64,000 nucleotides of DNA from Tomocerus qinae (Eukaryota > Arthropoda > Collembola > Entomobryomorpha > Tomoceridae), in NCBI GenBank assembly GCA_020055645.1, contig CM034546.1, forward strand, positions 1,426,001-1,490,000, written 5' to 3'. The translations under genes and the position numbers were made by a program. Each line of letters opens with the position of its first letter. The first letter of the stretch is position 1. The notes beneath the pieces were generated by a model that saw only the letters and a list, made by a program, of their open reading frames with translations, did not search any database and was not told where the DNA came from. Shown piece after piece: positions 19,548 to 64,000 of this stretch.

Positions 19548-22500
19548 TTTTCCATTCGTTGTTTCTAAACGGAAATATATTGGAATAATATATTATTATA
19601 CTTTTACATGACATATTAACCATCAACCATACTTCAAAATCAACGGAGTAAATCTAGTGCATATTGTCTCAACTTGCAAGAAACTTGTTCCTTCAGCAAA
19701 CGAGTGGATATATATACTATCTTCCGTTAAAAATTAAATCATTTTATTGCAATTAATTCAAAATTGTATTACAAATTACAAATACACTATACGCAAAAAG
19801 TAAACACTTTTTTTAAAAAAAAACTTCTTTCTGAGTTTTAAGATAGAGCAATAATCAACAATGTCATTCTATTCCTTTCAAATTTGCATTACATCTTTGT
19901 TGGATTTCGGTAGGGAATGAAACAAGATGAGACAAAACAAATTAAAGACGTAAACTCGCAATTTTAAATGTTCAGTTTAAATTGTAAAGATCTGGTATCT
20001 ACTTTAATCAGAGCATAAAGTCGGCATTTCTAAAATAAACAGCAAACACTGTATTAGACAGGTAAAGAAATGACTTCATAGTTCATAGTTCATGTTTATT
20101 CAAGTGCCACTTAATCAGTTACAAACAAATTAATGAGTGCCTCCGTTTTCCACAAGTTAGCACCGAAGACAAGTTATCTATTTAATAATTGTCTTAGTCC
20201 CATAACAAGCTGAGTCGTTACCGTTACAGAATTGCAGAAGTTACAAAAAGTTACTTAATGGCATTAATTTTAATTTATTGTATTTAACTAACTTGGACCT
20301 TGGACGCTTATGGGCTTACAATGAGTTTAACAGAAAAGGATGTTATAAAAATAATTTAGAAAACTCTTTAGAACTAAGTATTAAAAAACTAGTATGAATA
20401 CCATTGTCAATTGTTTACTCGTGTAAAAATATGAATTAAATATCCGAATAATCTTACCAGTCATTGTTCCGGGTGGGTTACTTATAGCCATCACTACAAA
20501 ATATATTGTCGACTTTTATTGCGAAAAATTACATGTCTACTATAAAGAGTATTTTTTTCTCTTGTCCTACACAAGTTGAAGATCAATAATTGTTCACCTT
20601 TGCTTGCATTTGCACAACAAACTGCGAATTGCCACTTTCACCTTGAATCTCCACAACAAACTGCGAATAAGCGAGCAGATGATATTATTTATAACAAAAA
20701 ACTTATATGGTAAGACTAGGTTCAGCATTTGTAAACGTTGTGATACCTATAGATTCTGCTGAGTCAAACGTTTTTGTATGTACACGTTGAATAAGCGGAC
20801 TACCTAGAATAAGTCCGCAAATTCTGCATAACAGATACTGCTATCTAATAACACGTATTGCCAATCTCACCTTTCTGTTCCTTTTGGTACCGATTGTTTT
20901 CTATTGTGAAAGGTGACAAGAGCAACGAGTATCATTGCATCAGATTTTAAATTGTATTAACATGTGTATCAATGTATACTTATCTATCACGTTTAATTTC
21001 TGACGTAAATCACATATTTATTCATGAAGGATGATAGAAGGTAAATGAAAATGAAAAGTTAATAATAATTTCATTCTCTGCAGAAAAGTAAAAAATTATT
21101 AGGCAAAATAGGAGGAGTTTGGAAGACATGAAATGATTAGTGTATGCAACTTTTGAGTAAAAGTAAAAATATTCATACTTTATAGCAAGTTAGTCATCAG
21201 ATCAAGCTATATCAACGGCATTTCATGGTTAAAATTAAGTATAACATCATATTTAATACATTATAACAATATATTTAATGCATTTTAACATTATATATTT
21301 AATACATTATAACAATATATATTTAATACATTATAACAATATATTTAATGCATTTTAACATTATATATTTAATACATTAACATTATATATTTAATACATT
21401 ACAACATTATATATTATTTAACATATTACAAATAAAATTAATTATTATTACATTCACATATTTACATACACCAAAGAGCTTGGTTTTTGAACTAGATTTG
21501 TGGTTAAAAAATTGTCCGAATATATCTGTAGTAGCATACATTGTCGTAGGTATATAAAGTGGCATGTGCCGGCAATTATTTATGTCATATTATAGCCATT
21601 ACTTTGTGAAATACGACTTGTCTGTGATTACCCCATTACAAGATAACACTTATATATCACGAACTCATAGCCAAACTTAACATTTCAACCAGGCATGAGC
21701 CGAAAGTCTCAGTCGGCACCGGCAGTGTGTGCATGAGACTGTATAATATAGACATCAGTTTAGTATACTACGTATGTTATTTGTTATATGAGTGCATTAG
21801 TTGTAATGGGTTCAAAGAAACATTCAAGGTTATGTCTATTTTAGCACTGCGTTGTTAGTGCATATAGTTTGACACTTAAAAACTACTTTACAAGAAAGTT
21901 ATTTCCCGTCTCATTTACTCCCGGACCGGAGTTTCTACCAATCAGTCATAGGAAAATAAATTGTTTTCCTCCAGATTCTTTTATGTGTTTAACTTGCTAA
22001 TAAAATCCAAGTGCTTACAGCTTGCACAACTACTTATTTAACTAATACTTTAATTGTAGTTCACTCACATAGTACGTTTATATACATACTGTAGTTTACT
22101 TTCTGCAAGTACACAAAAGGATATACTCAGTGGTAAACAGAATTTACAGATATGAATAAAATGTCCTGTAACATGAATAGAATGTATTGTATTGAGCTCT
22201 GTATTGAATAGAACCATCATAGCAAGGGACTGAATATCTACACAGGAAAATGTAGGGCATGTGGCAAACAGATGTACAATAATCTCATCCTACTTTAACT
22301 CCCCAGAGACCTCATGGAAATAAACACGCAGGCTGAAACTGCTCTGTAGAAAATCCGACCTTAAATAGTTGGGCATGAGACAGACTCAACTGGAAATGCA
22401 GCAACTCAACTCACTTACCTTTTCAATATCAGAAAAGGCTAGGCTTATATACGAGGTATTACATAATGCATTTTTACAACTTCCTCCTATCAACCGTTTA

Positions 22501-25236: not shown

Positions 25237-26691
25237 ATATTATATTGTATAGGTACCACACGATATATAGTCGTTTAGTCGTTGTTGATTTTAATCCTCT
25301 AATTACCACAATGATAGATCAAAAAACTAATAATTTTTCCTGAAACATTTCAATAAACAAATAATTTGACTGCTTATGTCTTGTCTTTTACACAAGTCAA
25401 CATTTTATTTCCGACGAAGATGTACATTTCCCAAGGAAGTCATCCAAGCAAATCGAAAGTACAAAGAACAAAAAGAATGTTTTCCTTTTTTCTCCTTTTG
25501 CAAAAAAGAAATTTACAAAAATGTTTAACGAACGTTTTATTTTTTACTTTTTAAGTTTATGAAAAATAATTAGTAATTAATAAGTAATTAATTAAAAATT
25601 CAAATTTGACTATCCGATATTCTTAGATTAGTATTTTATTGATTTAAAATAATTATTTTACACTCTCAATCTCAAAAGGTCATATTCCATTGGCTTGCAA
25701 ACGTCTGTCTACTAGTTTTAAATTTGCTACTACTACATGCATACCTAATTAGGAAAAAAATGCCAATCGTGTAAGACATAATTGTTTCATAAAAATTTGC
25801 TTTCCCGTTTCTCTTATTCTTTTTTGCTTCCTGGTGTAAATCAAACTTTGTATAGCAGACAAAATGTATTAGGTCTGTCACTGTCAATGTCAACTATCGA
25901 TTGTAATAATTATACTAGGGCATTCGTTTAGAAACTCCCGTTTGAATATTCAAACTACGTAAATACATGCAAAAAGAGAAACTATATAGAATGTTCTATG
26001 TACAAAATAAGTTGTATAAATCTGACGTGGTAGTCCATTGCGTGATATCCTTTCATGAGTTTCATGGCCTATGGTGCACCGTGAAAGTCGTGCTAGTTGC
26101 CGCATTTGTAACATGCCGAAAGTTTTTAAATGAATGTTTAAATAAACGTAGCCAAAAGGCAAAGCTACACAATTACAGATAATATCTAGCACGTTTTGTG
26201 TTCTATTTTGGTAATAATTAAGATTGGGTAATAATAATTAAAAGTAAAAGTCTGATAAATTTGTAGAATAGTCAGAAAACATTTTTAGTTTGTATTTCGG
26301 CTATTTACATTTGGTTAAAAATGGGATGACATAATCCCATTTATGGTCAAAGGGTCTGCCAGTTGTAAGTTAAGGTTGGCAGAATAGATTGATACAATTG
26401 CGGATTTCTCAATGACGTTGAATATCCCTGTTGATATGGTTTGATAAACCCGGAAATTTTTCATAAATATATCCACGTGTCGGAACTATTTAGGCCTTTT
26501 CGGTATCTACAAAACCATCTGTTTATTTTGCTTTGTCTCCGAGGACAACTTGACCAATAAGTCCTTCACTGGTTAGGAAGAAGTAGGAATGACGCCATTC
26601 GCTATTCCTTGTCTTTGACATTAAGCCTGGTTTCACTGTCACCTTTATTATTATTATAATTTACACTACTTAGACACTCCACACTAGAAAA
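25237..26691. other. Intergenic, no gene seen
   Basis: AT-rich. Short opposing frames near 25950-26190 overlap each other and have no motif. No repeat family recognised. Confidence 0.4.
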
Positions 26692-27189
26692 ATGGATTTC
26701 AAAAGATTTGAGGCTTTATTTTCTGCAGTTTTGGTTTTGTCAATTCTTAAATCCACCAACGGCATCCTGAAACTGTCATTTTACAGAAATTGTGATTTCA
26801 ATTTAATAACATTTCCGAATTCTAAATGGCAAACGAAATTTATGTTGTCCAATCAAAATGAGCAGCCATGGACGGTGGCAACCTATCACTATAATCTAAA
26901 TGCCTTTGGCAGAGATCACCACAATCCACGAGATTTGTCCAACAATTTGTGTAGCATTAACATTCTTATGGAGCCAGTCATCCCAGTTGGATATATACTA
27001 TTTAGGTTTTTTGGAAAAGAAGTCAATCGACTGACATCGAAGTTCATAATTGTCTACGAATGGAAGAAAGCTAAAGCTAAACATCTACGATGGCAATCCA
27101 CTCTCAGGAATGAGTTATCAAGTTCACTTATTGTCTTGTATATCGAAGATGAGACTCGTCATTCTTTAGAAAGAATGGCTTTAACGTAA
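26692..27189 (+). pseudogene. Truncated ionotropic-receptor-like gene (N-terminal third only)
   Basis: It encodes 165 residues that align with residues 1 to about 160 of the intact receptor at 37381-39381. Shared features include the signal peptide (LVLSILKSTNG), LSFYRNCDFNL, LLSNQN/MLSNQN.QPWTVA, PRDLSNNLC and FGKEVNR. It stops at ERMALT where the paralogue continues into MTGHLYKQ, and no ligand-gated channel segments follow. It is most simply a 3'-deleted paralogue. A short secreted ligand-binding-like product cannot be excluded because the remaining frame is open. Confidence 0.75.
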
Positions 27190-32728: not shown

Positions 32729-32876
32729 CGCCATCAGCACGAAAAGCTCTACGGTCAGCAATATTAAAATTTCTGACAAACCACACCGAGCTACGTTTTC
32801 AGAAAACACCGGACAACTTTTCTGAACCATTAGGGGAGGACGGTTAAGGATCATCCCGCAGCAGTCCAAGAAGAAG

Positions 32877-35114
32877 ATGCAGCCGAAAGAAAAAGACGAC
32901 CAATCCCTGGAGGCCGGTAGAGACATATGGGTCGTAAATTTTGAATGCCATCGTCATGTCTGCAATAACAAGTCTCTATTCATCGAGGGAACGGAGAAGC
33001 CCACATCAACCATACTAACTCTTAAGGAGGGGACCCAAGTAAATTCTACATTGGCAGGGGACGTCTGTTTGCTGGCACTTGGACCGGAGAAGTTTGAACA
33101 ACGGATTCTCCGAGAGGTACAGTACATCCCATGGTCACTAAATTACATTTCGAAGACGGCATTAAATTATCATGGATACAGCCTAAATTGCGAAGACAAG
33201 AAAATCAAGTTTTTGACGCAGAAAGGGGTAACAGCGTTTCAGGCGACAAATAACAACCGAGGACTAGCGGTTGTTGCAGCACGGAACATGCGAGAGGCCA
33301 CTCGCAATCGTTGGCACGAGAGGCTCGGACACCAGAAATATGGACTAATCAAGATGGCCCTGGAGAGGAAAGCAGTATATCTGGAGTCAGATCACGCCCT
33401 GGAGGAGGAGTTCCACTGCCAGATTTGTGTCCAGAGGAGCCGCCAACTAACTCTGCCGGAAGAAGATACACAGCATCACTACCTGGAAGAAGGGAGCCTG
33501 TATGCAGAGGTGCTGACCACAGACGTAATAAGCAGAAACGGAGAATTCCATGCCCTATTCATCCGAGAGGGGAGTACTAATTACATCGAAGTGAGGTTCC
33601 TGGCGACAAGAAAAATTAAGAAAATCATTGAACAACTCACCACAGCCGTAGAAAAATGCCTGACAGTAAGAGGGAAGAAGATAAACCGTGTAGTGACGAC
33701 ATTTACTATCAACGACGATACCTGGGATACTTTCGTTGCGGGAAAAGAGATCAAGTACGCCAGTGGAAGCAAGCCGGACAGAGTGATGACCAACTCTGTA
33801 CTACGAATGGCTTGGAGCATGCTAACAGAAGCAGGGATTAATGAAAAATTCTGGACGGACGCAATCAAACACGCCGTATACCTGCACAATGGGACCATCC
33901 CGTTCGGGGGAAGCGTTAGGACCCCCGTGGACCGTAGAACCGGACACACAGTAAACATCTCTCAATTGAAAATATTCGGCAGCGAGGTCCAGATGTGCAA
34001 ACGGGATAATAGAGGACGACTAACAGGGACATTCATCCAGGGGATCTATTTGGGGACACAAGATCGGAAAAATATCGTATGGGACAACGGAGACAAGCAA
34101 GTGGTTCTGGCGAAACACATTTACAGCTACGAGAGCAAAATCATCCCGTACCAGACCCCAAACAAAAACAATCGGGCGTTTCCTACCTTCAGAGAGTGGA
34201 TGCGGATCACCGAAAAACCAGGTTCGAATAAAAATTCTAAGAAATTAACTAACATGTATGACTTGCTGCTAGAGGGAATAAGCAGTAAACCAGGACCAGC
34301 AACTGAGGTTGCCAAAGAGGCTCTTAAGGAAGCAGTCCCGCGGAAGAAGAAAGTCAAGGCAAGTGTCGGAGCAGCTGTTAGACCTCCACAGGGAGTGGAC
34401 GACCGTGCGGTAGCAGGCAGGACAAGTGTCGGAGCAGCTGTTAGACCTCCACAGGAAGTGGATGACTGGCGAGCAGGAGCAGCCAAAACCGGGGACAAAG
34501 GCAAGAGCAGCGTTGCAGGGAGCAGCGGTTCAGATATGGACATCCTGGATATTTCATCAGAGCAGCCATCGCTCTGGAGTGAAGAAGCGGAAGAACACTG
34601 GGAAAAACTACATGGCATCCGGAATAGCAATCAAGGAGGAAAAGATAAAAAGAACAAGAAGAAAGAGGACCGGGTTCGTCCTCCGCCCACTGAGTCGAAG
34701 ACTACCAAACCGATCAAGAAAGAATTAGAAGAGATTACCTCTACCCTGAATAAAACGCGTGTCGACCAACCTAAGAAGCGATCCAGAAATAGGTCCAGGT
34801 ACAACAAGACCAACCCTGCAGGCATGACAGGAAAGGATTTTCTAAGCACGGAGGCAGAAGAAGCCGAGGCAGACGACCCAACAACTGAGCCGACTACATC
34901 CATCGAGGAGGAATGTGAAGCAGCGCATGCAGCCGTGAAAGAGGAGAGACGGCATTACAAGAAAGAGCTGTTCAAGAAGCTCTTTGGTTTCGATCAACCA
35001 GAATACATGCAGCCACACACAGAAAAGTGTGAAAATGGATATGAAGACAACTTCACCTGGGTCTGCACGTGCTTTCCTTCAGTTAATATTGAAGAACCTT
35101 ATGTACCCTTATAA
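32877..35114 (+). CDS. Copia-type polyprotein fragment with degenerate catalytic sites
   Basis: 745 residues, uninterrupted. Residues about 18-40 align with a copia protease start (WVVNFECHRHVCNNKSLF), but the catalytic D-S/T-G triad is replaced by N-F-E. Residues about 140-190 are a GAG-pre-integrase zinc motif (WHERLGH...CQICVQ). The integrase-like part (about 205-350) keeps the first Asp (TTDVIS) and the C-terminal FWTDAIKHAVYLHN segment. The second Asp region and the third catalytic Glu are not recognisable (KPDRVMTNSVLRMAWSML). Then come an SH3-like/chromodomain-proximal region and a basic, low-complexity tail with a 21-residue repeat (SVGAAVRPPQ.VDD, twice). The ORF is intact although its enzymes appear dead. 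Possible roles, such as packaging or protein-binding, are inference. Confidence 0.85.
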   Translation: MQPKEKDDQSLEAGRDIWVVNFECHRHVCNNKSLFIEGTEKPTSTILTLKEGTQVNSTLAGDVCLLALGPEKFEQRILREVQYIPWSLNYISKTALNYHGYSLNCEDKKIKFLTQKGVTAFQATNNNRGLAVVAARNMREATRNRWHERLGHQKYGLIKMALERKAVYLESDHALEEEFHCQICVQRSRQLTLPEEDTQHHYLEEGSLYAEVLTTDVISRNGEFHALFIREGSTNYIEVRFLATRKIKKIIEQLTTAVEKCLTVRGKKINRVVTTFTINDDTWDTFVAGKEIKYASGSKPDRVMTNSVLRMAWSMLTEAGINEKFWTDAIKHAVYLHNGTIPFGGSVRTPVDRRTGHTVNISQLKIFGSEVQMCKRDNRGRLTGTFIQGIYLGTQDRKNIVWDNGDKQVVLAKHIYSYESKIIPYQTPNKNNRAFPTFREWMRITEKPGSNKNSKKLTNMYDLLLEGISSKPGPATEVAKEALKEAVPRKKKVKASVGAAVRPPQGVDDRAVAGRTSVGAAVRPPQEVDDWRAGAAKTGDKGKSSVAGSSGSDMDILDISSEQPSLWSEEAEEHWEKLHGIRNSNQGGKDKKNKKKEDRVRPPPTESKTTKPIKKELEEITSTLNKTRVDQPKKRSRNRSRYNKTNPAGMTGKDFLSTEAEEAEADDPTTEPTTSIEEECEAAHAAVKEERRHYKKELFKKLFGFDQPEYMQPHTEKCENGYEDNFTWVCTCFPSVNIEEPYVPL
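34357..34483 (+). repeat. 63-bp tandem duplication within the polyprotein ORF
   Basis: Two in-frame copies encode SVGAAVRPPQGVDD and SVGAAVRPPQEVDD. They are nearly identical at the DNA level (AGTGTCGGAGCAGCTGTTAG). Confidence 0.85.
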
Positions 35115-37016: not shown

Positions 37017-37380
37017 ATATTCATACTACCAAAATGGTAACCTTTTTCCTATGCCTTGGTAATTTTTAGAAAGTGCTGACAAAAATTAAAATAAGATTGA
37101 ATTTGATTGAAGGTGATTGAGGCCAACAATTGTTGCCGGTTAAAATGAACTATCGGGTGAACAATTAAAACAAAACACTGGCAAATGATTGTGTACCATC
37201 CATAAACCCACACAAAGTAACTTTTTAGCGCTTGATGGTGCTTACTGCCGGTGTATTTTGACTTCGTCGCTGTTGACAACTAGACATTGGTTATTACATG
37301 TCTGCTGAGTAAAAATGATGACTTTTTGCCTCTCTCTCACACTTATTAGTTACACATTTAGTTCTGGACAGTAAAACAAA

Positions 37381-39381
37381 ATGAATTTCAAAAGCCTTTA
37401 CAATTTATTCTCTTTAATTTTGGTCTTGTCTGTTCTTAAAGCGACAAACGGCATTCGAAATTTGTCATTTTACAAAAATTGCGATTTCAATTTGGTCATA
37501 TTTAACACATCTGTCTGGGAAACAACGTTTTTATTGTCGAATCAAAATTCACAGCCATGGACGGTGGCTTCATTTGACTACGATCAAAATGTCTTCGGGA
37601 GAGATGATGTAGAACCTCGGGATTTGTCTAACAATTTGTGCAATGTCAACATTCTTATGGAGCCAGATATCTCAATTCCGCTATTAATAAAGGGATTTTT
37701 TGGAAAAGAGGTCAATCGACCGACTTCTTATTTCATAATTGTCTTCGAAAGGAAAAAGTTTGAAATCAACAATCAAGAATGGCAATCAAACCTCAGATTC
37801 GAATTGGTCAGCCCTCTTTTTATATTAGTTGTTGACAATGCGACTCATCATTCGGTGATGACTGGACATTTATACAAACAAAAAAGATTTGTGGCAGATA
37901 TAGAAATAGAGGATGAAGATTGGGAAAGAGTTTGGTACTCTGTAAATGGAAATCTGCATGGCACAAAGGTTGGAGGGATTTCTGTTGGGGTTTCTTTCTA
38001 CCACGCTGCAACATGGCCCCAATGCAAATGGTCCATTTATTTTGTTACGAAAATAAATATAGTATACTGTTACGATACTTTCAGATCTGTGGAAATAATG
38101 GCCGACAGATTAAATTTCACTTTAATTTATGCAAAGCATGAAAACCTTTTAAAGCCGAAACAACTTTCTGGACAAATTTACTTGTCTGGATATTATTACA
38201 AGATTTCTTATTTTTCGTATAAAACTACTTTCATTGAATACCTTGAAGAGACGATTCCATATTACTGCGAGGCCTCTCCGAATTTCCACGACGTTCCTCT
38301 GTCGGTGCTAATACAGAATACATTTGATGAATATTGCTGGCTTCTCATCTTCTCTCTTTTCCCACTGTCATTTTTAGTTTTATCTTTCGGGTCGACGAAT
38401 TCCTCCCCAGCTAAGAAACTAGATTGGATTTGGATCTCCTTGGCAGCTGTTCTTTTAGATCAGGGAGTTGTCTATAACAGAAAAAGGAGTCTGTTCGTGG
38501 TAGTAGCAACCACGGGATTTGCAATCACCACTCTCTATGCAACTTGGATAACTAGCGAAATCATTGCACCCCCAGACAAGAAAATATTTCAGGATTTCAA
38601 GGACCTCGTTGAAAATAACTATAAACTTTTGTGGCAGAGAGAACTTCGAATTGGAGTTGATGACAATAGAACTGAATTGTTCATTAACTATAATATATTG
38701 GAAAAGATGAATTCAAGTGTTTATATTTATGACTGGGAGATAGAAAAGCCGAAGGTTCGAGACCTGAGCGACATCGCTAATAATCTGATGACCAACTATT
38801 CCCTGAAACTATTTTATATTGCTCTCAAACAATTTGGGCAGCATGTCGTGCCAATGATATCAAAAGAAACAGCAACTAGTGGACAATGCACGACCACCAA
38901 AGAAATTGCAGACACAAAGCCTTATTCTTACATATTTTATGGCTGCTACCGTCACAACTTCCAAGCATATTTTCAAAAGATGCAGGAGACAGGATTTCTA
39001 ACTATTTGGAAGGACCAAGAGGAAGATAGAACGTACCTGTCTGCTAAAAAACTCAATTCACAGATGGAATATGACGACAGTCGACCTGTGGGAATCAACT
39101 TAGGAATGAAAATTCATACCATTTTGATTTTATGTGGCTATTTGTTTGTAGAAAATTTTGTGATATTTTATATGGAACTCATTTACGATGAATTCATTCT
39201 TTTTCTCTCCACAACTGTTTCCAAATGTTCTTACCCGTTTCAAATAGCCACAAACAAGCTCAGATATTTAGGCACAAATCTGTACACATTCTGCCAGGAG
39301 AAGATACATTGTCCTAACTGTAAAAGAATATTTGAAAGGATTCGACCAAAATCACTGAGAATTAATGTTGATTCTTACTAA
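37381..39381 (+). CDS. Ionotropic receptor-like (IR) chemoreceptor, intact
   Basis: A single-exon 666-residue protein with the divergent-IR layout. Signal peptide 1-24 (SLILVLSVLKATNG). Extracellular region about 25-310, including LSFYKNCDFNL and NQNSQPWTVAS. First membrane helix near 316-335 (YCWLLIFSLFPLSFLVLSFG). Pore-like segment KLDWIWISLAAVLLDQG. Helix FVVVATTGFAITTLYATW followed by ITSEIIAPPDKKIFQDFKDL, as in the M3/S2 junction of IRs. C-terminal helix near 580 (ILILCGYLFVENFVIFYMEL). IRs are variant glutamate-receptor cation channels of chemosensory neurons, and divergent members are often gustatory. I do not see a conserved glutamate-binding Arg/Asp pair. A truncated copy (26692) and a decayed copy (48865-50796) are nearby. 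Poly(A) signal at 39471-39476. Confidence 0.82.
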   Translation: MNFKSLYNLFSLILVLSVLKATNGIRNLSFYKNCDFNLVIFNTSVWETTFLLSNQNSQPWTVASFDYDQNVFGRDDVEPRDLSNNLCNVNILMEPDISIPLLIKGFFGKEVNRPTSYFIIVFERKKFEINNQEWQSNLRFELVSPLFILVVDNATHHSVMTGHLYKQKRFVADIEIEDEDWERVWYSVNGNLHGTKVGGISVGVSFYHAATWPQCKWSIYFVTKINIVYCYDTFRSVEIMADRLNFTLIYAKHENLLKPKQLSGQIYLSGYYYKISYFSYKTTFIEYLEETIPYYCEASPNFHDVPLSVLIQNTFDEYCWLLIFSLFPLSFLVLSFGSTNSSPAKKLDWIWISLAAVLLDQGVVYNRKRSLFVVVATTGFAITTLYATWITSEIIAPPDKKIFQDFKDLVENNYKLLWQRELRIGVDDNRTELFINYNILEKMNSSVYIYDWEIEKPKVRDLSDIANNLMTNYSLKLFYIALKQFGQHVVPMISKETATSGQCTTTKEIADTKPYSYIFYGCYRHNFQAYFQKMQETGFLTIWKDQEEDRTYLSAKKLNSQMEYDDSRPVGINLGMKIHTILILCGYLFVENFVIFYMELIYDEFILFLSTTVSKCSYPFQIATNKLRYLGTNLYTFCQEKIHCPNCKRIFERIRPKSLRINVDSY

Positions 39382-46220: not shown

Positions 46221-47606
46221 ATGTCGCAGTACAAATTAATTTATTTTGACGTCCGTGGGGCTGCAGAGCCAATTCGACAAATATTCGCCTACGCCGGTGA
46301 ATCTTTCGAAGATGTGCGAATTCCTCATACTGAATGGACACCTGAAAAGAAAGGAGGTTCGTCCGTTTCGATTTTCCTACTAAAATATTATCTTTGATTA
46401 CTTATTGCTTACAGTGTTGCATTTTGCATTAAAAACTACTTGAAGAGAGATAGTATTTTGTAGGCAAGCATTAAACAACTTAATAAGTGGCGGAGAGGCT
46501 CATCGTTTCCTAAATCTGAGAATAATTTTCCTCTAAAATGGCTTAAAGTCGAAAAAAAACAGTTTGATGTTTTTAACATAATTATTTTTGTGCCCCTTGA
46601 CCAAATTTCTGGATACTTGCCTGTTTATAGGTATAAGATATGACTTAGCATGCTCATTCATTTTATGTCATTCGTGTTAATAATCCATTGTGTTTATACT
46701 TTAAATACCGAAACCTGACAAAGTTACAATTTACACAAAAGAAATATGTTCAGTGTAAAATAAATACTTTTATAGCATTCATGACAATTAAACTACAACT
46801 AATTACTATGATATCACATTTTTATAGAACTCCAGTTGCCATGGGGTCAAGTTCCTGTTTTGGAAGTCGACGGAGTGAAAATGGCCCAGTCCTTTGCTAT
46901 AATGAGATATTTAGCCAAAAAGTTTAAGCTGGCTGGGAAGAATGAATCCGAAGAATATCGATGTGATGAAATAGTTGAAGCCGTCAGAGATGTTGCTTTA
47001 AGTAAAGGGCCATTTAATATTTTAATAACTTTATTATCATAGAAAAAATGTCATTATCAATGATCCCATTATTTTCAATTTATTGCCTATATCATTACAA
47101 TATATTTCACTGATTAGTCTTTTTTGCTTAGATTAATTTTTCTTTTGCGCTTATCATTATGAGATAACAGGAGTACGATAAATGTCACCAATTTAAATTG
47201 CGCTTAACTGAACTGAATATCTAAATACAATTTGGATAGATGATATTTATGCATTACGTTATATAATTTGAATTGCTTTTCAGAGGTGCAGCCGATGTTT
47301 AGAGTGATATTTGCCAAGGACACAGAAAAAATTGCAGAATTAAAGAAGACGTTTCTTGAAGTCGACGCCCCAGTTATGTTGAAGAGGTTCAACGATGTGT
47401 TAGAGAAAGGAGGAAAAACTTGGTTCGTTGGAGACAGTCTTACATACGCCGATATCGTTTTCGCTAACATGATCAATGGATACGATAGCCTTCTTAGTGT
47501 TCAACTGGAAAAGGACTTTCCGGCAATCGCGAAACACAGGAAAGCGGTGGAAGAGGAGCCCAAGTTGAAACAATGGATTGAGAACCGACCCAAGACTATG
47601 TTCTAA
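46221..47606 (+). CDS. Glutathione S-transferase, sigma class
   Basis: It conjugates glutathione to electrophiles; sigma GSTs also detoxify lipid peroxidation products, and some make prostaglandin D2. Three exons join in phase: 46221-46356, 46828-47001 and 47284-47606, giving 210 residues. The N-terminal thioredoxin-like domain has Tyr8 (YKLIYFDVRGAAEPIR), the usual sigma catalytic residue. It also has cis-Pro in PWGQVPVLEVDG and the glutathione-binding QSFAIMRYLAKK. The all-helical C-terminal domain has KTWFVGDSLTYADIVFANM, the N-capping/hydrophobic-staple region. Intron 1 contains a dispersed motif (CCAAATTTCTGGATACTTG, about 46600). Poly(A) signal AATAAA at 47666-47671. It lies among chemoreceptor genes; a role in odorant clearance would be speculation. 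Confidence 0.93.
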
Positions 47607-48864: not shown

Positions 48865-50796
48865 TTAAAGAGTTCCTAAATATTTCTTTATTTTTATTTT
48901 TTTAATTATGGAGTACAAGCATTGGTAAATATTTTGAGTAAAAAATGGAGATAATATATTATGACTAAGCATTTCCAAATAGAAAGACACGAAAAGTTCT
49001 AGAAGGAAATAGCCACACAATATAAAAGTCGTGTGAATTTTCATTCGCAAGTTGATACCCACGGGTCTACTGTTTGAATACCTCATTTGTTAATAGAGCT
49101 GTTTATTTGACAGATGTTGTTTATACTTATATTGTTCCCTCAGATTGGCTAAAAGTCCTTCCTCCAGCGCCCGTTGTAAATATGCATGGACATTATGACG
49201 GTAACAGCTATAAATTGTATAAGAAAATGGGAGAGTTTCTGCAACCTCCTTGGTTGTCATACATTGTCCAAATGTTGATAATGATTTTGGTATATTGGGC
49301 ACAAAATATTGTCCATCTAGTTTATTTGTGACATCAAATAATTTAATAGAATAGTTAGTAAGCAGGTCCAAAGAATTTTGATAAATATCTCCGTCAGCCT
49401 TAGTTGGTTTTTTCAATTACCAATCATAGATATAAACGCTTGAATTCATCTTTTCCATCATACTTCTTAAATAAGCGATTCTTCTCGGTACTCTGATCCA
49501 GTTTAATTCAACTGTCCTTTTGCCGCAATAACCTGTACTTATTTTCGACGAGTTCCTTGAAATCGTTGAATATTATCTTGTCTGGGGGTGTAATGATTTC
49601 GCTAGTAATCCAAGTTGCATAGAGAGTAGTGATTGCGAATCCCGTGGTTGCTATTACCACGAACAGACTCCTTTTTCTGTAATAAACAACTCCCTGGTCT
49701 ACAAGAACAGCTGCCAAGGAAATCAAAATCCATCCTAATTTCTTGGAGGGGTAGAAAGTCGTCCCGAAAGATAAAACTAGAAATGAGAATGGGAAAAGAG
49801 AGAAGATGAGCAGCCAGCAATATTCATCAAATGTATTCTGAATCAACACCGACAGAAGGAGGGAATGGAAATTCGGGGATGGTTCGCATCAGTAGGGAAT
49901 AATTTCTTCAAAGAATTCAATAAATGTCTTAGTCGACCAATATTGAGTGTAGGTTGCCACATAATATCCCAAAGTATTAATGCGACCACAAAGTTTTCTC
50001 ATTTGAAAATTCTAGCATGTTTTGCATAAACTGCAATAAAATTTAATTTGTCAGCCATTCCTTCCACAGCTCTGAATGTAGTGTAGCAAAGTCCATGACC
50101 TATACTCAAAGCAGTGTAAACAGGATTTTTACACTCTGGCAGTTCAGTAGCGTAGTAGAAGGGAAACATGGCATAAATTCCTCCAATTCGGATGCCATGC
50201 AGATGTCCATTCAGAGAGTAACAAACTCTTTCCCAATCTTTATCTTCAATTTTTGTAACTGCAACGAATGTTCTTCGTTTGTAGAGATGTCCAGTCTTAA
50301 CCGGGTGATTAGCCTCATCATCAATAAGCAGAACAAACAACGGGCTGGATAACTCTATTCTGAGACTCGCCTGCCAGTCTCGATGATATGTATTCAGCTT
50401 CTTCCTTTCCTGCACAATTATAAATGTAGAAGATAAACGATTGATTTCTATTCCAAAAAACTAAATAAACTAAATATACTATTGTCTGGTTCCATAAGAA
50501 TATTGACACTGCAAACATTGTTGGATAAATCCCTTGGGTTACTTTAATGTCGAACTAGATCTACTCCGCTACTGTCGATGAAACAGATTTATGTCGTAGT
50601 TGAATGAAGCCACTGTCCATGGCTGTGAGTTTTGATTAGACAACAAAACCCTCGTTTCCCAGTAAGAATTTGGAAACGCTATCAAGTTAAAATCGCAATT
50701 TCTGTAAAATGACAAATTTTGAATGCCAATGGTGGTCTTAAGAACAGATAACACCAAAAATAAAGAAAATAGAGTAGAAAATATTAGTAAGTTCAT
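48865..50796 (-). pseudogene. Decayed ionotropic-receptor-like gene
   Basis: The minus strand contains, in order, five fragments homologous to the intact receptor at 37381: 50796-50569 (signal peptide to QPWTVAS), 50415-49999 (middle), 49849-49508 (channel helices, IRNTFDEYCWLL-like to TPPDKIIF), 49416-49090 and 49086-48865 (last helix). They are separated by frameshifts and stops, so no single product is possible. All parts are collinear with the paralogue. It is a pseudogene by multiple independent lesions, not an intron-containing gene, because the intact copy has no introns. Confidence 0.9.
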
Positions 50797-51849
50797 TCTT
50801 GAGTCTCCAGTTTACAATAAGTAGAGTACAAAAAGTGAATGGGAAGTGAATTAAAGTGGAATACCCTCGCCTAGCCATGCCTAATGAAGGACGACCTTCA
50901 TTATCAAGTTGTCTGCAGTAAAAAAATTCAAAACATACTTATTCTTAAAATACCGTGTAGCGGAAAAAAACTATTGCACCTGTCTGTTTTATAGAGACAT
51001 TTCAATTATTCAATTATTCATAAATTTTTTTCAGTACTGTGTGGTTAGTGTAGGGATTCTACTCTTCTCTCATTTTTCATTTCCCCTCCTGTTCTTTTCA
51101 GAATAAATTGGAAAACTACAACATTCTTCTGTATGGTGATTGATTATCACTATGAACGACTGTAGAGTATACAATTTTTTGCCAGTTTACTCTGAAGAGA
51201 AGAGGAGGGATCTTAAATTAAAGCACGTTGTAGATTATTATTAAGTGATTAGATAAGTGTAGATTATTAAGTGGTAAATTTTGTTATCTACAGTAGATAA
51301 GATGATTTAAAAAAATTAGACCCCGACGTTTGATCCACTTATTATGAAGTAATAAGAATAGACTACAAGAAGTCTTGATTACTCTGTGATGAGTTACTCT
51401 GACTCACTATTATGCATACTATCAAGTGTTATTCTCTTTTATCCGACGGAGACAAATCAACTGCTTCCCCTCACTCATTTTCGTATTATTGGTCTTGTAA
51501 TTAATTAACTCCAAAGGCTGAATATCCAAAACTACTTGAATCTTGGTCCCAGTATAACAGACCACTGAGACAGGAATGGTACTCAGGAATAATAAGGTCA
51601 ATTCGAAAAAAAGTCCCATATAAAAGCTCAAACTCTCTTATGGGACATAAATTACAATCAAAAACATTCGATTTTCTAATTGATGGCTATATTGTCAATT
51701 AAGGCTAACTTGACCTCAAAAATGGCCATTGTCAATTAATGGCAGTTTGTATAATGGTGGTTCAGAGTACCGTAGATCCTTAGCCAAGGGATCATGGTGG
51801 GCGACCGGAGTAAGTTGCCAATGCCCACATTTCAATTTAAAAACAAAAG
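50797..51849. other. Intergenic
   Basis: A 69-codon minus-strand frame at 51631-51422 begins with a signal-peptide-like segment (LFFELTLLFLSTIPVSVVCY). It has no other support and may be chance. Confidence 0.3.
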
Positions 51850-55386: not shown

Positions 55387-58300
55387 ATGTGGGGTAAGTG
55401 AAATAAAGTGAATTTATTTTCCTTGTGATATCTTTGCTAGCATATATTCACTAAAATATCAAGTAACGTATAGTTGCAATTAATTTAGTATTTCCACTTT
55501 TTCTGAATTTCAAATTCACAGGACCTTCTGTTTCTGTCATTTGCAAATGACATTCAGAAAACAGAAAACTAATCCGCTTAAAATAAAATGTAACATTTGT
55601 TGTAAATTTGTACAGGAAAAAGGAAATTTGCTTGGATTACTGCAGCCGTAGATGAGGAAACGGCTCTGCAGGCAATTGTGCTGGCGAAATCACTCTCTAG
55701 AGTCGTCACGGAAGCCGACAAGATAATTTTGGTATCTGAAGATGTTCCTGATCGTTTTTGGTGTGTTATTTCTAATCGAACAACGGGACATTAAAAAAAA
55801 TTTTGTCTCATTCATAATGATTGGAAATTATAATTACTTATATCAATTACTACAGAAGAGTCGATAACATTTTGAATTTCCTGGAAGATTGTAATGATAT
55901 CCAATAATTTAATATCTTCTTTCCAGTGCAATCCTGGTCAAGTTTTTCGACGCCCTCGTTTCAATCGAATTGAAACTTGAAATATCGAAACTTCCGAAAC
56001 CAGAATTGCTTATCACTCACGCCTGGAATGTGACCGGATATGCCAAATGCGTCGTTCTCCGCCCCAATAAAGTAGTAAGTACAATAAAGCATAATTACCC
56101 TGAATGGTGGACCATCTTGGGTCCATTTTCAGCTTCGTAGATTCGTAGTCATACTCAATTACTCAGCCATGCACTAGGATGTTATCATTAAAGTAAAATA
56201 AAACATTGGCTTTCAAACAATGTTTGGTAGACTCATCGGTAAATTCGCTTTACGGTTATTCTAATTAACAGGATACTGGAGTAAAATAACAGCGTGTAAT
56301 TTAAAATTTCAAACAGTAGTAAATGCAGGCCAAAGTTTTGAAAGACGAATATTATTACTGACTTATAAGTACTTCTTGATTGCTATTCGTTTCATGTAGG
56401 TCGTTAAAAATTGTGACGAACTATTTGATACGGAAAACAGCTTTTCAACAGTAAAGATTGGGGAATCTGAAAAGCAGATTGATGCGACGGTCATGGTTAT
56501 TGAGCCTGGATTTGAACATTTCAGAAGCATCAAAAAATTGGCCATGGATCAACAATTCAGTTCTAGTAAGTGTACTAGGGAATCCAAAGCCGGTTTTACA
56601 CCGGTTTTAAAACCGGTGAAAAACCGAATTTTTCAAAACCGGAAACCGGTTTTCATTTTCTGAAAACCGGTGTTGATAGAAGATTTTTAACTATATCTGA
56701 TATGCAGTTAAAATGGCAATAAAGCCTGAAAATTCAAAAAACCGAAATTGAGATACAATTATAAAGTCACATAAATTATATAAAATAGTAAAACGTTTAT
56801 TAATAATAACATGAAAATCCTTAATGTTTGGATACGTGCAATTATGTAGACTCCAGTAAAGTAAAACACAATAAACTAGTATTTACAATAACAGTAATGT
56901 AATAGAAGGGCAATCACCAGCAGTTCCGTTTAGAGTTTTTTACTTTAGAGTAACGCAATACAAAAATGTCAGTAAAGATTTTCTATCCTCGATATATTTT
57001 TTGAAATAAAATAAAATTTGTTAATTAGATTGAATCATTTTAAATCAATTTTCTCTAATTTTCAAAAATTTAGAAAGCATAAAAATATGAGAAAAATTTA
57101 TTTGCTTCAATGACGCTGCATTCTATGATGGGATATTCTATGATTGCATTGATTACCTTTGAGAATTATCGAAAACTGGATATGAGTTGGAAAAAACTTA
57201 CTACATGGATTTAAGTAAAAACTCTCAGCGTTTTTGGAGTGGCCAATAATTTTAGTACATAAATTTACAACATTTAAATTATTTATTTTGAGAATGACTC
57301 GATAGAATTGGTTTTGTATAAGGGTCCCCTCCAATTGCAATACATTTAGTAACATAACTACTTTTGAGATTTACATCTCATTTAAAAATTAAAATTAAAT
57401 TAAAATGTTAAGCAAAAGTTAAAATTCCACTTGATGAAATTGTGTTCTGTCTGTATTTGTCTGCAAACACATTAATTTGGTAGTATTAGCATTGAATTTT
57501 AAAAAATAAATTTTCGGTTTTTAAAACCGGTGAAAAACCGGTTTTAAAAGTTCAAAAACCCGAAAACCGGTTTTAAAATTTGGGTCCGGTTTTGGATTCC
57601 CTAAAGTGTACCCTTTTGCACATATTTTTAATAGACACGACTCGGGCATTTTATTTACGGCCTCTAAGTCAGTATTTAAATCAATAACACGTAGGAACTT
57701 AACTATTTCCTATTTGACTTAGTTTCGGAGATATTGGATGTCCACTTTTGCCAAACTAAAATGGGGAAACTGGAAAATGTATATAATTTGAATGTTGAGA
57801 GTCAGACTTTGAAGAATACGTAAGTAAATATCTTCTATTTGTGTCTGCATCGGCATCAAGCACGTATCCCATTTTTGACATTATTTTTGATTGTGCTCCC
57901 TAGACCAAATTTCTGGATTTGTCCCTGACCTGCATTGCGTATTAACTCGCAATTTACACTAAGATAGTGAAAAAATTGAAGAATACCAAAGACCAAAGAT
58001 AGCTTCATTCATATATGATTTGAAAGTCAATGATACCACAGTCACAATAGGTTCTTGGTGCATTTTGGTGTTTCACTATTATTTCTTTAATTAATTTTTT
58101 GCACTAACTCGGGCATACAAGTCTGTACAGTAAACTATTGTGGTTGGCATGAAATATTTAGCTTTTTAGTAACGCATTATTTGAATTAGTATCTGTATGA
58201 GTAACAAATGTGTAGTATGTAAATATTTAGTGAGTCAGAATGATATAAATGAACGGAGTTTTGAAACTCTGTTCTGCTAGTTTTGGCGCAAGCAAGATAA

Positions 58301-61300
58301 CGTTATTACTTATTACAGTTAGGAAATAAATCTGGCTGTAAATATATTATCTGTGCAAATTAAACTACTTATGTCTACCTAATATTTTTGTTGTACGTTT
58401 TCAGGCAATTACCGGACATCAAAATTTTCTCTGGCTTAGAAAAATTTTGGCCACAAAACCCAGAAGCATTACATGACATTTTTCAGGTAATATTTGAGTA
58501 TCTCTATAGAAAATATTATAACCACAACATAGATTTAAAGTACCTATACCAATCCTTCTATATATGTACTACCTATGTCTTGTTGGTACTGTCCAAAAGC
58601 AAAAAACGTGCATGTCCGGCAGGTACCCCAGTGCCGCCCCGCCCCGACGGGCGGCCCCAGGTGGCATCTCTTGGTGCCCCCCTTAAATTCCCAGAAAAAT
58701 ACAATTATTTTGTCAAAAAAAGTTAAAAAATCCAAAAAATTAAAGGTCTTTATTTTACCCATATATTTTTTTGGCCCCCCTTGGTCAAATTCCTGTATAC
58801 GTGCTTGATCTACACAAACAATAAACCGAAACATTGAAATTTTCTAAAATGTAATAATGTGAATTGAAATGTAATAATAATTGTGCTGCTGTAATTTGGA
58901 TTAATGTGTTGGATTACAGCCAAAGCAATACCAAAACTCAAATAAAGTCGCAACATATTACGTGTCCTAAATTTACCACTTTTTTGGTTTTTTTACCATT
59001 CCCGTCACAGTGGTATTTTTACACATGTATGTGAGCCTATAAATTTGCAATTTTGCCACTTATTATTTTTTAAGCGTACACTGATATGGTCACTGAAAAA
59101 TTGTCATTAAGTCAAAAACATTGTAACTCAACTTGCACCTTTTTTGTCATTTTGAATTTCAATCTCGAGCATCGGAGCATGTTATTATGGTAAGTCATCG
59201 AAATACAATTTGCTTTATTTATCTTGCCCACAAAACTTAGGTATTACGTATACACTACAACTGTTATATTGCAATTAATGTTTTCAATAATGTACCCCAA
59301 CCCATACATTCAGGTGCTACATTTAGTGCATGGAGGTATGCGTTGGGGTACATTCTTGAAAACATTAATTATTTTAATGTGTACATCGAATCACTGAAGT
59401 TCTTCTCTGCTAATTACAATATTGGTAGGCTGACCGTAATTTGACTAAAGAAAACGGGTCTCTATACAGTACAGTATTCATAAATCGATTTCGGAGGGAG
59501 CAATGTCATTAATATGTCCATGGCATCATTGCGTGCATTTTAACGCATGACTAAATTAAAGTAAAACTTTTAACTAAGCCATGTGACTTTTTACCGAAAA
59601 TGGTCAATAATTTAGCCTACCTTACACTTCACAAATAATCGTTCGAAGCGCAAAAAATTTTCTTAAAAAGGAAAGGATGGTCAGCCTACATAATGGGACA
59701 ATGTTCCATATATTCATATTCGGGTTCATAAAAAATTCAGATGGTGCCTATAAACATTAAAATGTTATGGTAATAAAAGGATTTACCTTTTCAATGTTAT
59801 AGAAAGCACTTTAAAAACTGATTTTCAAACCTGTGTGTACTTATAGGGAGCTTACAATTTGTGGCTATTATGGAGGCAACAGACTCAAGAACAATTAGAA
59901 AGCCTGATGCTGGAAAACAACGGTTTGAACATCGAGTCAACTATCCATTATAAAGAATCTATAGCCATCATTGGACATAGTTGCCGATTTCCAGGCGCCA
60001 ACAACATTGATGAATTTTGGGAACTCATAAAAAGTGGAGGTGATGGAATCCGATCGGTACCCGTTGAACGACTTTCCGAAAATCAACTCAATGATACCAG
60101 ATTTACAGAATCAAAAGCTGGATTCCTTAAATGCCCGATTGATGAGTTCGATGCCAAGTTTTTCGGTATCAGTCCTCGAGAGGCGGCTTTTATGGATCCA
60201 CAGCAGAGGCTTCTCGCTGAAGTGGCTTGGGAAGCATTGGAAAATGCGGCAATCGATCCACATTCTTTGAAAGGGAGTAACACGGGAGTATTTACTGGAG
60301 TGTGGACACACGACTACGAAAGAGTGATTGCCGAAAACTCAACTGCACAAGATTTTCACCATGTGATCCTTGGAAACGCCTTTTCTGCAACATCCGCGAG
60401 AGTTTCTTACTTCTTGGGTCTCAATGGACCGAATGTGGCTACAGAGAGCGGCTGTTCCTCTTCGATGGTGGCTCTTCACCTGGCTTGCGACAGTCTCAGG
60501 AAAAGAGAAACCAATTTGGGTCTTGTGTTGGGTTCCAACCTAATTATCATTCCATTACCACTCGGGGAGATTCCAATTCTGGCCAAAGATGGTCACTGTA
60601 AAACTTTCGATGAATCGGCGGATGGGTTTGGCCGAGCAGAAGGAGTAGCCGCAATTGTTTTGAAAAGATTGCCAGATGCAATTAAAAATGGTGACAGGAT
60701 TATGGGTATTATTAGAGGGACAGCAGTGAGTAACGAAGGAACATCTTCCAATTTCGGAACTCCGAGTAAACTCTGTCAGCAAATTGCTATAAATCATGCT
60801 TTGAATAATGCACGAGTCAAGCCAGGAGATGTTGATTATGTAGAGGCCCATGGAACTGGAACCCCCATTGGGGATCCCATTGAATTCGCCGCCATTTCCG
60901 CCGGCTACACTGGAGAAAGAGAGAAATCACTTTTTATTGGGTCGGTCAAGACAAATATAGGTCATACTGAATCAGCAGCTGGGTTAGCTGGGCTAATGAA
61001 AGTTATTCTGGCGATGGAGCATGAGGAGATTCCTCCTCATAGGAATTTCACTAAATTAAATCCTAGTATTGACTTGGACGTTGTTCCAGCTATTATTCCT
61101 CTTGAACCTACACCATGGTTGAAAAACTCTGAAAGGACTCGAATTGCTGGTGTGAGTTCATTTGGGATTAGTGGGACCAATGTCCACGTAATTGTAGAAG
61201 AGCCTCCATGTAATATAAAAACACGGCCTGTAGAACTAAATACTCTTAAGTCTGAAAAATCTCATCATATTTTAACTCTGTCTGCAAAATCAGAAAATGC

Positions 61301-64000
61301 TCTCAAAGATTTGAGTAATCTTTACGCCAAATATTTGAACCACAACCCATCCGTTAAGATCACTGACCTCACTCACACCTGTAATACAGGACGGGCACAT
61401 CACAAGCACCGTCTAGCAGTTACTGGAAAATCAGTGGCCGATTTTCAGAAAGCTTTAGAAAGTGATATGCATATTCCACCTACACTTAATGATAAACCTA
61501 AAGTGGCCTTTCTGTTCACTGGACAAGGTTCGCAATATGCAGGAATGGCGAAGTCTCTTTTTCAGTCCAATTATATGTTTAATCAAGCATTCACAGAGTG
61601 TGACAATATTATTAAAAGTAATACAGGCATTTCATTGAAAGATGCTTTGTGGAACGACTCAGTTGATAATTTATTAGATCAAACAGTTTGTAGCCAACTT
61701 TCAATTTTTTCTGTAGAGTACGGTCTTTTGAAATTGTGGGAAAGTGTAGGAATTTTTCCCGATGTCGTTCTAGGTCATAGTGTCGGAGAATTTGCTGCTG
61801 CGGTAGCTAATGGGATACTTAGTCTAGAAGACGCTTTAGCTTTGCTTACCGAACGAAGTAGATTAATTCAGAGTCTTCCACCAGGTGGCATGATTGCTGT
61901 TCGTTCACCGAAGGCAAATGTGTCTAAATTAATTTCTGAATTTTTAAATGTTCATTCGGATATGTGGTTGGATATTGCTGTTATCAATTCCGAAGAAGAA
62001 GTTGTAGTAGCTGGCAACAAAAATTCAATTGAAACTTTTAAAACATTTTGTGAAAATAATGAAGTGAAGATACAAGTTCTCGCAGCTTCCCATGCTTTCC
62101 ACTCTCGAGATATGGATAAAATTGGGAAAGAATTTGGAGAATTTTCTAGTAAATTGTCCTACAAGTCTCCAAAATGGCATTACGTATCAGGGACTACAGG
62201 CAACTGTCTGTCAAGCAATGAGATGCAGGATGGAAGTTATTGGGTTAGACATGCAAGGGAATCAGTCAATTTTCTAAAGGGAATGTCAACGCTTGGAGAT
62301 CTTGGTTGCAATATTTTTATAGAAATTGGAGCACACCCTGTACTGTTGGCATTAGGAATGAACAACTTAAATGCTTCTGGAAACCAACTGTGGATTCCTT
62401 CTTTAAGACGAAATAAGGACGACTGGGAAACTATTATGAGTAGCATGGGAATATTGTACACGAACGGGTTAGATATTAATTGGGAATCCTTAGACAAATC
62501 TTTGCGCAGGAAAAAGTTGCAGTTGCCCCTATATCCATTTCAGAGGCAAAAATATTGGGCAGATATGTGTGGAGATATTAGTGAAAAAATAATTCATCCT
62601 CTTCTTGGAAAGAAGGTTTCAGTTGCTGACGTATCCCATTATGTTTACGAACACATTTGGGGTTTAAACGATCTGCAATTTATAAAAGATCACCAAGTTG
62701 CTCATATCATTGTTTTACCAGGTGCAGGGTTTTTAGAAATGATTTTAGCAACAGGAAAGGATATTCTCCTAAAAAATAATGAAAACGATTCTGGTTTGCT
62801 AACGGTAAAAGATTTTGTAGTGGAATCTCCACTGGAGCTGGAGGAAGGAAAGAAATATAAAATTCAAGTAGTTGCCTCTCCCATTGAAAATAAGACTGAT
62901 ACGTTTCATGTCAAAATCTATATGTTCAGGAAACTGAATGGTTATAATGACGAAAAGGGTTGGAAACGATATTCAAGTGCATGTGTTTCTCTATCGGAGT
63001 CTATAAGTGTGTCTTCCGAAGAAAGTTGCAGCAATGTTGCTGAAACAAACAACGAAATGAAACTTGAGAGTAACTATTTTCAAGAAGATATAACTACTGT
63101 AAAAAGTCGGTGTCCAACCGAACAGGATTCCAAAGAGTTTTATAAGATGGCCCCGGAGATTGGAATATTTTTTGGCGAGAACTTTCAAAGCATAGAATCA
63201 GTTTGGGTTGGAGAGAATGAAGCTGTGGCTTTAATTCCCATTCCGACAAAGGCAGGCAATTTAGCTAATTATGTTTTTCATCCAATAATTTTAGATGCCA
63301 TGATACAATTATTCGGTTTGAGCATTGGAACGGATAACGTAGACCTTTATTTGCCTGTTGCTATTGATAAAGTATTTTTTGTAAATGATTCAGCCACAGA
63401 AAGTCTTTTCGCCCATGCAAAATGGTCGGAAAAAATATCTTTGGGAACCGTTGCTTTGTACAATGAGAAAAACGTTTTGCTTGCAGTGATGGTGGGAATT
63501 CGGTTGATGAAGACATCTGTTAGTTCTTTTTTGAATGTTATCAATGCCCACAAGAACATGTTGCCCGGAATGTACCAGGAAGTGTGGAGACAGCGAGTAG
63601 GGCCAGTACAGGCTCGAATAGATGTTAAGAAAATTGTAGATGCAAAAGATGCCATAGAGCCACTTACTGTTAGTATGGAACAGCATATGAATATGTTTGA
63701 GTTGGAATGTTCCAAAAAGGGAGCAGAGGCCGTGAAATTGTTAATCCAGAAAATGTTAAAACAGAATGGATTTGCCCCTGAAGTGGGAGTTGTTTATTGC
63801 ATAGAGGAGTTTCTCCAAAACTACTTGATTCATCCCGAACATCGTCTATTTGTGAAACGATTGTTCGAAATATTATGTGAAGAGGGTTTCGGTGTAGAAA
63901 TCAACGACGAATCTGGCTTTATGGATGGCTGGAAATGTGTTAAGGAATTTCCTTCACTTGAAGCAATTGAAAAGAGGATGTCAGAGATTGATGATTTCTT
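55387..64000 (+). CDS. Glycogenin-like (GT8) domain fused to type I polyketide synthase (KS-AT-DH-...; runs off right edge)
   Basis: Seven exons join in phase: 55387-55393 (start MWG), 55616-55760, 55927-56074, 56400-56565, 57723-57819, 58405-58486 and 59847 to beyond 64000; 1,599 residues are visible. Residues about 6-245 match glycogenin/GT8 (KFAWITAAVDEETALQAIVL; YAKCVVLRP; CDELFD; FWPQNPEAL; NLWLLWRQQ) but lack DxD (Arg96-Pro-Asn98). KS about 252-663: Cys418 (ESGCSSSM), His550 (EAHGTGTP), His588 (KTNIGHTES). AT about 770-1070: Ser860 in GHSVGEF and HAFH, the malonyl-type motif. DH about 1133-1440: His1164 (DHQVAHIIVLP) and Asp1365 (LDAMIQ). Residues about 1490-1599 resemble the helical lead-in to PKS methyltransferase domains (HPEHRLFVKRLFEILCEEGF). 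Later domains (MT, ER, KR, ACP) must lie outside. The product is unknown. Confidence 0.88.
56576..57603. mobile_element. hAT-like MITE with CCGGTTTT subrepeats in PKS-gene intron, 8-bp TSD
   Basis: It begins TAGGGAATCCAAAGCCGG and ends CCGGTTTTGGATTCCCTA. Perfect 8-bp duplication AAGTGTAC (56568-56575 and 57604-57611). Arms carry repeated AAAACCGG/CCGGTTTT. No transposase. It begins only 10 bp past the splice donor of the fourth exon, and its target duplication overlaps donor bases +3 to +10. Confidence 0.92.
58600..58810. repeat. GC-rich dispersed-repeat fragment in PKS-gene intron 6
   Basis: A local GC-rich patch (CGCCCCGCCCCGACGGGCGG) stands out from the AT-rich intron. It ends in CCCCCTTGGTCAAATTCCTG, a motif with relatives near 11885, 46600 and 57897. 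Probably the end of a transposon family. Confidence 0.55.
59272..59370. repeat. Hairpin with GGGGTACATT arms in PKS-gene intron 6
   Basis: AATTAATGTTTTCAATAATG plus TACCCCAACCCATAC is complementary to GTATGCGTTGGGGTACATTC plus TTGAAAACATTAATT, with about 28 bp between. Probably a small MITE. Confidence 0.7.

Follow-up and report, generated by a model that had tools for sequence, protein, structure and literature searches.

The genome of the springtail Tomocerus qinae contains a gene predicted to carry a glycogenin-like (GT8) domain at the front of a type I polyketide synthase (PKS), and the analysis described here confirms this fusion at the level of gene prediction. The gene lies in a 64,000-nucleotide stretch (C1:1426001-1490000 of the 334-Mb genome), which was analysed as a whole and is referred to below as the window. 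To account for the fused gene and its many relatives, we think it reasonably probable that a glycogenin copy and a bacterial-type PKS merged, that the dead front domain was kept as a structural N-terminal platform, and that the combination was then multiplied.

Gene model and domain content

Seven exons were rebuilt from the sequence, and the joined frame runs without a stop over 1599 residues within the window (Table 1). All six introns are of the form GT...AG, with phases 1, 2, 0, 1, 2 and 0. A sequence-only reading of this DNA had claimed six small glycogenin-type exons with these phases; they are reproduced here in an open frame, and the front ~215 residues of the product are glycogenin-like, with residues 8-197 matching human glycogenin-1 at E=3.1e-11. 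The same reading had placed the fusion to a type I PKS within one exon, which the gene model supports, and had suggested extending the gene past position 64000. The exon does continue, as far as C1:1494876 (window-equivalent 68876), and adds MT, ER, KR, ACP and reductase domains. Exon 7 is a single 9.03-kb exon that extends beyond the window; it starts with ~36 residues of helix and linker, followed inside the window by KS, AT and DH, and its full encoded order is KS-AT-DH-MT-ER-KR-ACP-reductase. Together with exons 1-6, the whole of exon 7 gives a predicted protein of 3224 residues.

Table 1. Predicted features of the fused gene, in window positions
Feature	Position	Strand	Basis or boundary
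Exon 1 (ATG TGG G, start codon)	55387..55393	+	Intron 1 phase 1 in codon 3
Exon 2, glycogenin-like GT8, residues 3-51	55616..55760	+	Similarity; intron 2 phase 2
Exon 3, GT8; DxD position reads RPN	55927..56074	+	Intron 3 phase 0
Exon 4, GT8 (VVKNCDELFD...)	56400..56565	+	Intron 4 phase 1, codon aligned with codon 161
Exon 5, GT8; autoglucosylation site without tyrosine	57723..57819	+	Intron 5 phase 2, codon aligned with codon 203
Exon 6, GT8 (...DIKIFSGL...HDIFQ)	58405..58486	+	Intron 6 phase 0, as intact glycogenin after THLQ
Exon 7, first part: GT8 last helix (GAYNLWLLWRQQ) and short linker to KS	59847..59954	+	Paralogues, intact glycogenin
Ketosynthase (KS), Cys/His/His motifs	59955..61049	+	PF00109, PF02801
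Acyltransferase (AT), HAFH motif	61509..62462	+	PF00698
Dehydratase (DH)	62595..63509	+	PF21089, PF14765
Start of DH-to-methyltransferase region	63510..64000	+	Exon 7 continues: MT, ER, KR, ACP, thioester-reductase-type domain

The features of a type I PKS are found in one chain, including a KS with its Cys-His-His residues, an AT and an ACP (PF00109, PF02801, PF00698 and PF00550), with motifs at residues 415, 548, 585, 858 and 2738. Domain matches further indicate a highly reducing set in one module, consisting of DH, ER, KR and a C-methyltransferase; judging from this content, the enzyme should make methyl-branched, largely reduced chains that are released by reduction. The usual KR motif is YxxxN. 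Here, all seven copies read (L084 and L127-L132) have GQSNHAxAN (HxxxN), and His is also found in two of four KR motif matches at bacterial loci. The best PDB match of the KS-AT part is bacterial CurL, with 739 bits, and the best chain named as a fatty acid synthase (FAS) scores 292 bits. Identity of the KS to bacterial relatives is 42-49% (80 of 382 kept). When these 80 bacterial KS loci, with up to 4 kb of upstream sequence, were searched with four GT8 queries, there was no match at E<=0.01.

Several other features can be seen in the window. A 546-aa open frame at 17952-19592 (-) contains a short-chain dehydrogenase domain (PF00106, E=3.7e-12) after ~190 residues without a Pfam match, and a Copia-like Pol fragment lies at 32826-35111 (+), with matches to Pol_BBD, gag_pre-integrs and SH3_retrovirus, the last two below the Pfam cut-off. 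Exon-like pieces at 13300-13629, 16827-17222 and 47244-47603 (+) belong to enoyl-CoA hydratase, ribonuclease III and glutathione S-transferase. The open frames at 37375-39378 (+), 26674-27189 (+) and 50569-50811 (-) have a common start like NLSFYRNCDFNL; viewed by eye, they resemble divergent chemoreceptors, and the one at 37375-39378 has no Pfam match.

Relation of the front domain to glycogenin

When PDB sequences are listed up to E=10 for the window domain, 19 of the 20 are glycogenins and the remaining one is another GT8 protein (E=0.084). The Pfam GT8 profile does not match the domain at E<=1, an NCBIfam search returned no identification, and a scan of viral contigs returned no relative. 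Taken individually, exons 2, 3 and 4 score better against human glycogenin than their own shuffles, of which 0, 0 and 1 in 2000 reach the same score; with exons 5, 6 and the seam, 1203, 473 and 1834 in 2000 do, and these parts are not distinguished from their shuffles. A spliced alignment of the window to human glycogenin scores 175, compared with 44-73 in seven control stretches or strands. Introns 2 and 3 are reproduced in this alignment, as is the donor of intron 4; the phase-2 intron 2 is aligned with codon 48 of the human protein, and after exon 4 other exons are chosen. Since exons 5, 6 and the seam are not recognised against human glycogenin, the 3' half of the model is carried by relatives in the same genome. 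Exons 5 and 6 are matched again by the domain search in the paralogue at C1:2219830-2222189. In a first pairwise comparison, LPDIKIF of the window had been equated with human LPAFKVF; this was rejected, as DIKIFS falls opposite the residues preceding human His212 once paralogues and the intact glycogenin are included in the alignment.

A single intact glycogenin turned up in this genome, starting from C1:83795026. Its introns lie at codon 48 (phase 2), after residue 106 (phase 0), at codon 161 (phase 1) and at codon 203 (phase 2). By our own reading of the sequence, a further phase-0 intron of ~6 kb follows THLQ, and the next exon, near 83805760 onward, starts ELLQAWWDIFKGDVHHKL. An automatic alignment put the last intron at codon 240 instead; that position was set aside, as the exon reads on to THLQ with the donor behind it. 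Window codons 156, 188 and 215 fall under intron codons of the intact glycogenin in the multiple alignment, and codons 51 and 100 fall under 48 and 106 in the spliced alignment. In sum, each of introns 2-6 in the fused gene has an aligned counterpart of identical phase in the intact glycogenin; intron 3, for example, matches the one after residue 106. The claim that exon 7 opens with the last helix of the domain also held up: GAYNLWLLWRQQ aligns without gaps both with ELLQAWWDIFKGDVHHKL, the start of exon 7 of the intact glycogenin, and with AIHHLWLTIFSEDVHPTL, the start of the matching stretch in paralogue P9795, where the intron before AIHHLWLTIFSEDVHPTL is at the same codon and phase.

For intron 1, the comparison was made with human GYG1. 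Two papers list the human variants c.143+3G>C, with p.Asp3Glufs*4, and c.7G>C, the latter in the table column of one patient (PMC13258228, PMC7046021). On these variants, intron 1 interrupts codon 3, in a phase deduced from the frameshift, and intron 2 follows base 143; both human introns agree with the fused gene. Positions of human GYG1 introns 3 and 4 were not found in print, and the intron comparison therefore rests on the intact glycogenin instead. It follows from the introns shared with that gene that the PKS front domain descends from an animal glycogenin gene.

The same introns can be followed in 15 paralogues read by spliced alignment (11 plus 4, two of the 4 through exon 4 alone). 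Use of the window protein as the guide biases these alignments to its own exon boundaries, but GT and AG were required of every intron. At the codon and phase of the window, the codon 3 intron (phase 1) is present in four paralogues (P2219, P7410, P12498 and P640), the codon 51 intron in 12 of 14 (with an odd additional split in one of them) and the codon 100 intron in 13 of 15, with none there in P114564 and P9795. The codon 156 intron is found in 10 of 13, that at codon 188 in 8 of 13, with two more at most 3 codons away, and that at codon 215 in 7 of 13, with four more in phase 0 at most 6 codons away (209, 214, 219 and 219). Exon choice near exons 5-7 is uncertain in the divergent loci P6176, P7496, P9795, P39567 and P114564. 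A short extra intron in P114564, P7496 and P9795 is probably false, and P2219 and P4124 have an odd split at exon 2/3.

A related matter is whether the PKS could have a start of its own. Exon 7 of the window carries an in-frame Met ahead of the KS core, at exon residue 21. In 9 of 14 loci, the interval from the last predicted acceptor to the KS core lacks an in-frame Met, but in three of these 9 a probably false last intron shortens the interval. Seven loci (the window and six paralogues) have their last predicted intron at codon 215; of these, four have no Met in the interval (P2219, P65815, P7410 and P4124) and three have one (the window, P2235 and P128107). In the four without Met, any AUG ahead of the KS core has to be supplied by the exons before exon 7.

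Copies across the genome, lost residues and selection

Searching the genome with the window domain gave at least 152 matches, of which 150 were listed (150 of 229 candidates scored), and searching with the window KS gave at least 102 matches at at least 100 loci (100 of 189 candidates scored). With the first domain search, 75 of 100 KS loci have a same-strand match within 30 kb upstream. With two more queries added, a same-strand glycogenin-like match is found upstream of 84 of the 100 within 15 kb, and of 87 within 30 kb. By KS identity, the 84 consist of 30 of the 31 loci at >=83%, 43 of the 47 at 66-82% and 11 of the 22 below. The corresponding control counts are 0 with the strand flipped, 14 for same-strand matches downstream, and on average 0.4 (maximum 4) over 300 circular shifts; a chance neighbourhood of glycogenin-like matches and KS was rejected on these grounds.

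A PF00109 search supplied 29 further KS matches (123 of 163 candidates scored), and in this extended set 94 of 129 KS matches are preceded by a glycogenin-like match. Taken from the other side, 190 of 200 glycogenin-like matches precede a KS (rows for the intact glycogenin excluded). The order glycogenin-KS on the same strand recurs on C1, C2, C4 and C5, and the fusion arrangement is detected at about 85-95 loci, some of them fragments. Open frames of >=2800 codons are present at 51 of the 100 KS loci and at 26 of the 31 in the closest class. No glycogenin-like match was detected within 15 kb at 16 of the 100 KS loci (13 within 30 kb), so the domain is either dispensable for some PKSs here or too divergent to see.

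Some loci were set apart as observations in their own right. At C1:599404 (-) and C5:17186981 (+), the nearest glycogenin-like matches are 17-27 kb upstream of the KS, through long introns or by chance. Separate KS groups with matches ~7.6 kb apart lie at C1:34004020-34019998 (+), C1:35263003-35286506 (-) and C100:3304-11683; these groups, with an open frame of up to 3769 aa, have no glycogenin-like match within 15 kb upstream. The Pfam search gave three GT8 matches, L081-L083.

The identities of KS and exon 2 are correlated across 71 loci, with a Spearman coefficient of 0.77; in the subset of 42 loci whose KS identity is below 83%, there is no such correlation (0.19, P=0.23). In a protein tree built from 14 fused domains and two glycogenins, one branch (100 of 100) sets the glycogenins apart, with the deep forks unsettled. 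Since the tree separates glycogenins from fused domains, one fusion would be enough, though it is not proven.

For the active site, we looked at ten residues of human glycogenin that we take to be catalytic or ligand-binding, with the acceptor tyrosine numbered Y195. In the alignment, the intact glycogenin of the same genome keeps 10 of 10. Both Asp of the DxD, kept in the intact glycogenin, are kept in 0 of 16 fused copies and one in 4 of 16, with R-P-N in the window. D125 and N133 are each found in 0 of 16, and D160, Y195 and Q164 each in 0 of the 14 copies with the region. All 14 have a gap in the Q164 column, and two have one in place of the absent acceptor tyrosine. The single survivors are an Asp in the D163 column (6 of 14), His212 (1 of 14) and a Lys in the K218 column (2 of 14); as some site residues survive singly, the domain may retain residual ligand binding. 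In human glycogenin-1, Asp102His alone is reported to abolish autoglucosylation (PMC5203857). With the DxD pair, the UDP-glucose/metal residues and the acceptor tyrosine lost, the front domain very likely neither transfers nor receives glucose. A self-glucosylating priming role, raised in the sequence-only reading, is thus disfavoured, and an active glycogen primer in front of the PKS was rejected for the same loss of catalytic residues.

The domain appears to be constrained nevertheless. Pairwise dN/dS is 0.15-0.42 in exons 2-4 (36 non-independent pairs sharing nine copies, with dS >1 in 12), 0.22-0.69 in exons 5-6 and the seam (10 pairs) and 0.07-0.10 in the whole KS (3 pairs); in the three pairs measured for both, the value for exons 2-4 is about three to four times that for KS. 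Exons 5-6 and the seam are fast-evolving, the window and P128107 being 30% identical there. On these ratios, exons 2-4 are under purifying selection, and frame-keeping alone would not give such values. Part of the reduction below 1 may come from a mere need for a soluble in-frame leader.

Possible roles and comparison with known systems

The explanation that we favour would run as follows. A copy of the animal glycogenin gene and an intronless, bacterial-type reducing PKS would have become one gene, with the PKS frame occupying the exon that begins with the last helix of glycogenin and replacing what came after it. In the predicted gene anatomy, the PKS thereby has an animal start codon and spliced 5' exons, and presumably it would also have captured a promoter. 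The front domain would have lost catalysis yet still fold, and would serve the dimeric megasynthase as an N-terminal platform, by clamping the dimer, aiding folding or offering a partner a surface to dock on. The fusion would then have spread to its present number of loci. Given the purifying selection, we infer that the domain is still folded and working as a structural platform. Glycogenin is a dimer, and PKSs are dimeric through KS; thus, the likeliest job would be that of a dimer or docking platform. More tentatively, and with somewhat less confidence than in the merger itself, the domain might define a new class of PKS accessory domain: a host enzyme turned pseudoenzyme on a horizontally acquired megasynthase, the platform of a family of ~85-95 loci, controlling assembly, location (e.g. 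glycogen particles) or partner choice.

The most serious alternative, although an unlikely one, is that the glycogenin part merely supplies a promoter, a start codon and a splice context, its frame being kept since a stop would kill the PKS. Such a passive leader would fit the disappearance of most catalytic residues, the excess of dN/dS in exons 2-4 over KS in the three pairs and the high variability of exons 5-6 and the seam. However, the amino acids of exons 2-4 are themselves selected, with dN/dS below one half in all 36 pairs, and even copies that share only 21-31% identity with the intact glycogenin still have a KNCDELF-type motif or variants of it.

It is considerably less probable that the domain represents an altered module for loading, starter binding or carbohydrate binding, which would bind a ligand without catalysis. 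Loading parts are often found directly before KS, which is where this domain lies, the sequence core of the fold is kept, and single active-site residues survive in some copies; against this, DxD, D125, D160, Y195 and Q164 are lost as sets, and no Pfam carrier or acyl-binding family was found in the domain. Two neighbouring genes, or an assembly or splicing artefact, could be imagined from the unrecognisable exons 5, 6 and seam (compared with human glycogenin) and the Met in exon 7 of the window, but we regard this as highly improbable, given the same order and strand on four contigs, the recurring intron phases, the four of seven codon-215 loci without an in-frame Met before the KS core, and the phase-0 intron that precedes the same helix in the intact glycogenin.

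As read here, this one genome shows how an intronless gene for a giant enzyme can become part of an animal gene via a last-helix exon, use the host start codon and splicing, and then multiply. The dozens of predicted pseudo-glycosyltransferase domains form a natural set for asking what a dead enzyme domain does on a PKS, and the PKSs themselves are candidate enzymes for branched reduced lipids in an animal. We know of no link between springtail cuticular lipids and these PKS genes. Those lipids are described as unusual (PMC10825826).

Within the titles and abstract openings of the open-licence literature searched, no glycogenin-PKS fusion was found. Another springtail, Folsomia candida, likewise has many type I PKS genes in an animal genome: 30 type I PKS clusters are reported for it, with most biosynthetic-cluster genes also scored as horizontally acquired (PMC5490193). 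One F. candida PKS is discussed in a paper on the animal FAS-like PKSs (AFPKs; PMC10764717). In the text of these sources, ‘glycogenin’ occurs 0 times in the former and words beginning with ‘glyco’ 0 times in the latter. AFPKs are also multidomain KS enzymes of arthropods, and according to the same source they form a clade with animal FAS (PMC10764717); here, compared by bit score against PDB chains, the KS is not nearer to animal FAS than to bacterial PKS (292 bits for the FAS chain versus 739 for CurL).

The closest known systems are therefore those of the two halves. The bacterial-type type I reducing PKSs (KS-AT-DH-MT-ER-KR-ACP-R), with CurL the nearest in the PDB, have the same domain content and KS and AT motifs; the Tomocerus PKS differs in its location in an animal genome, where it is preceded by six small exons and a putative pseudo-glycogenin. 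Glycogenin itself (GT8, GYG1) has its catalytic-domain sequence and introns in common with the fused domain, which differs in the loss of the DxD pair, D125, D160, the acceptor Tyr and Q164, and in the replacement of the C-terminal part by the PKS.
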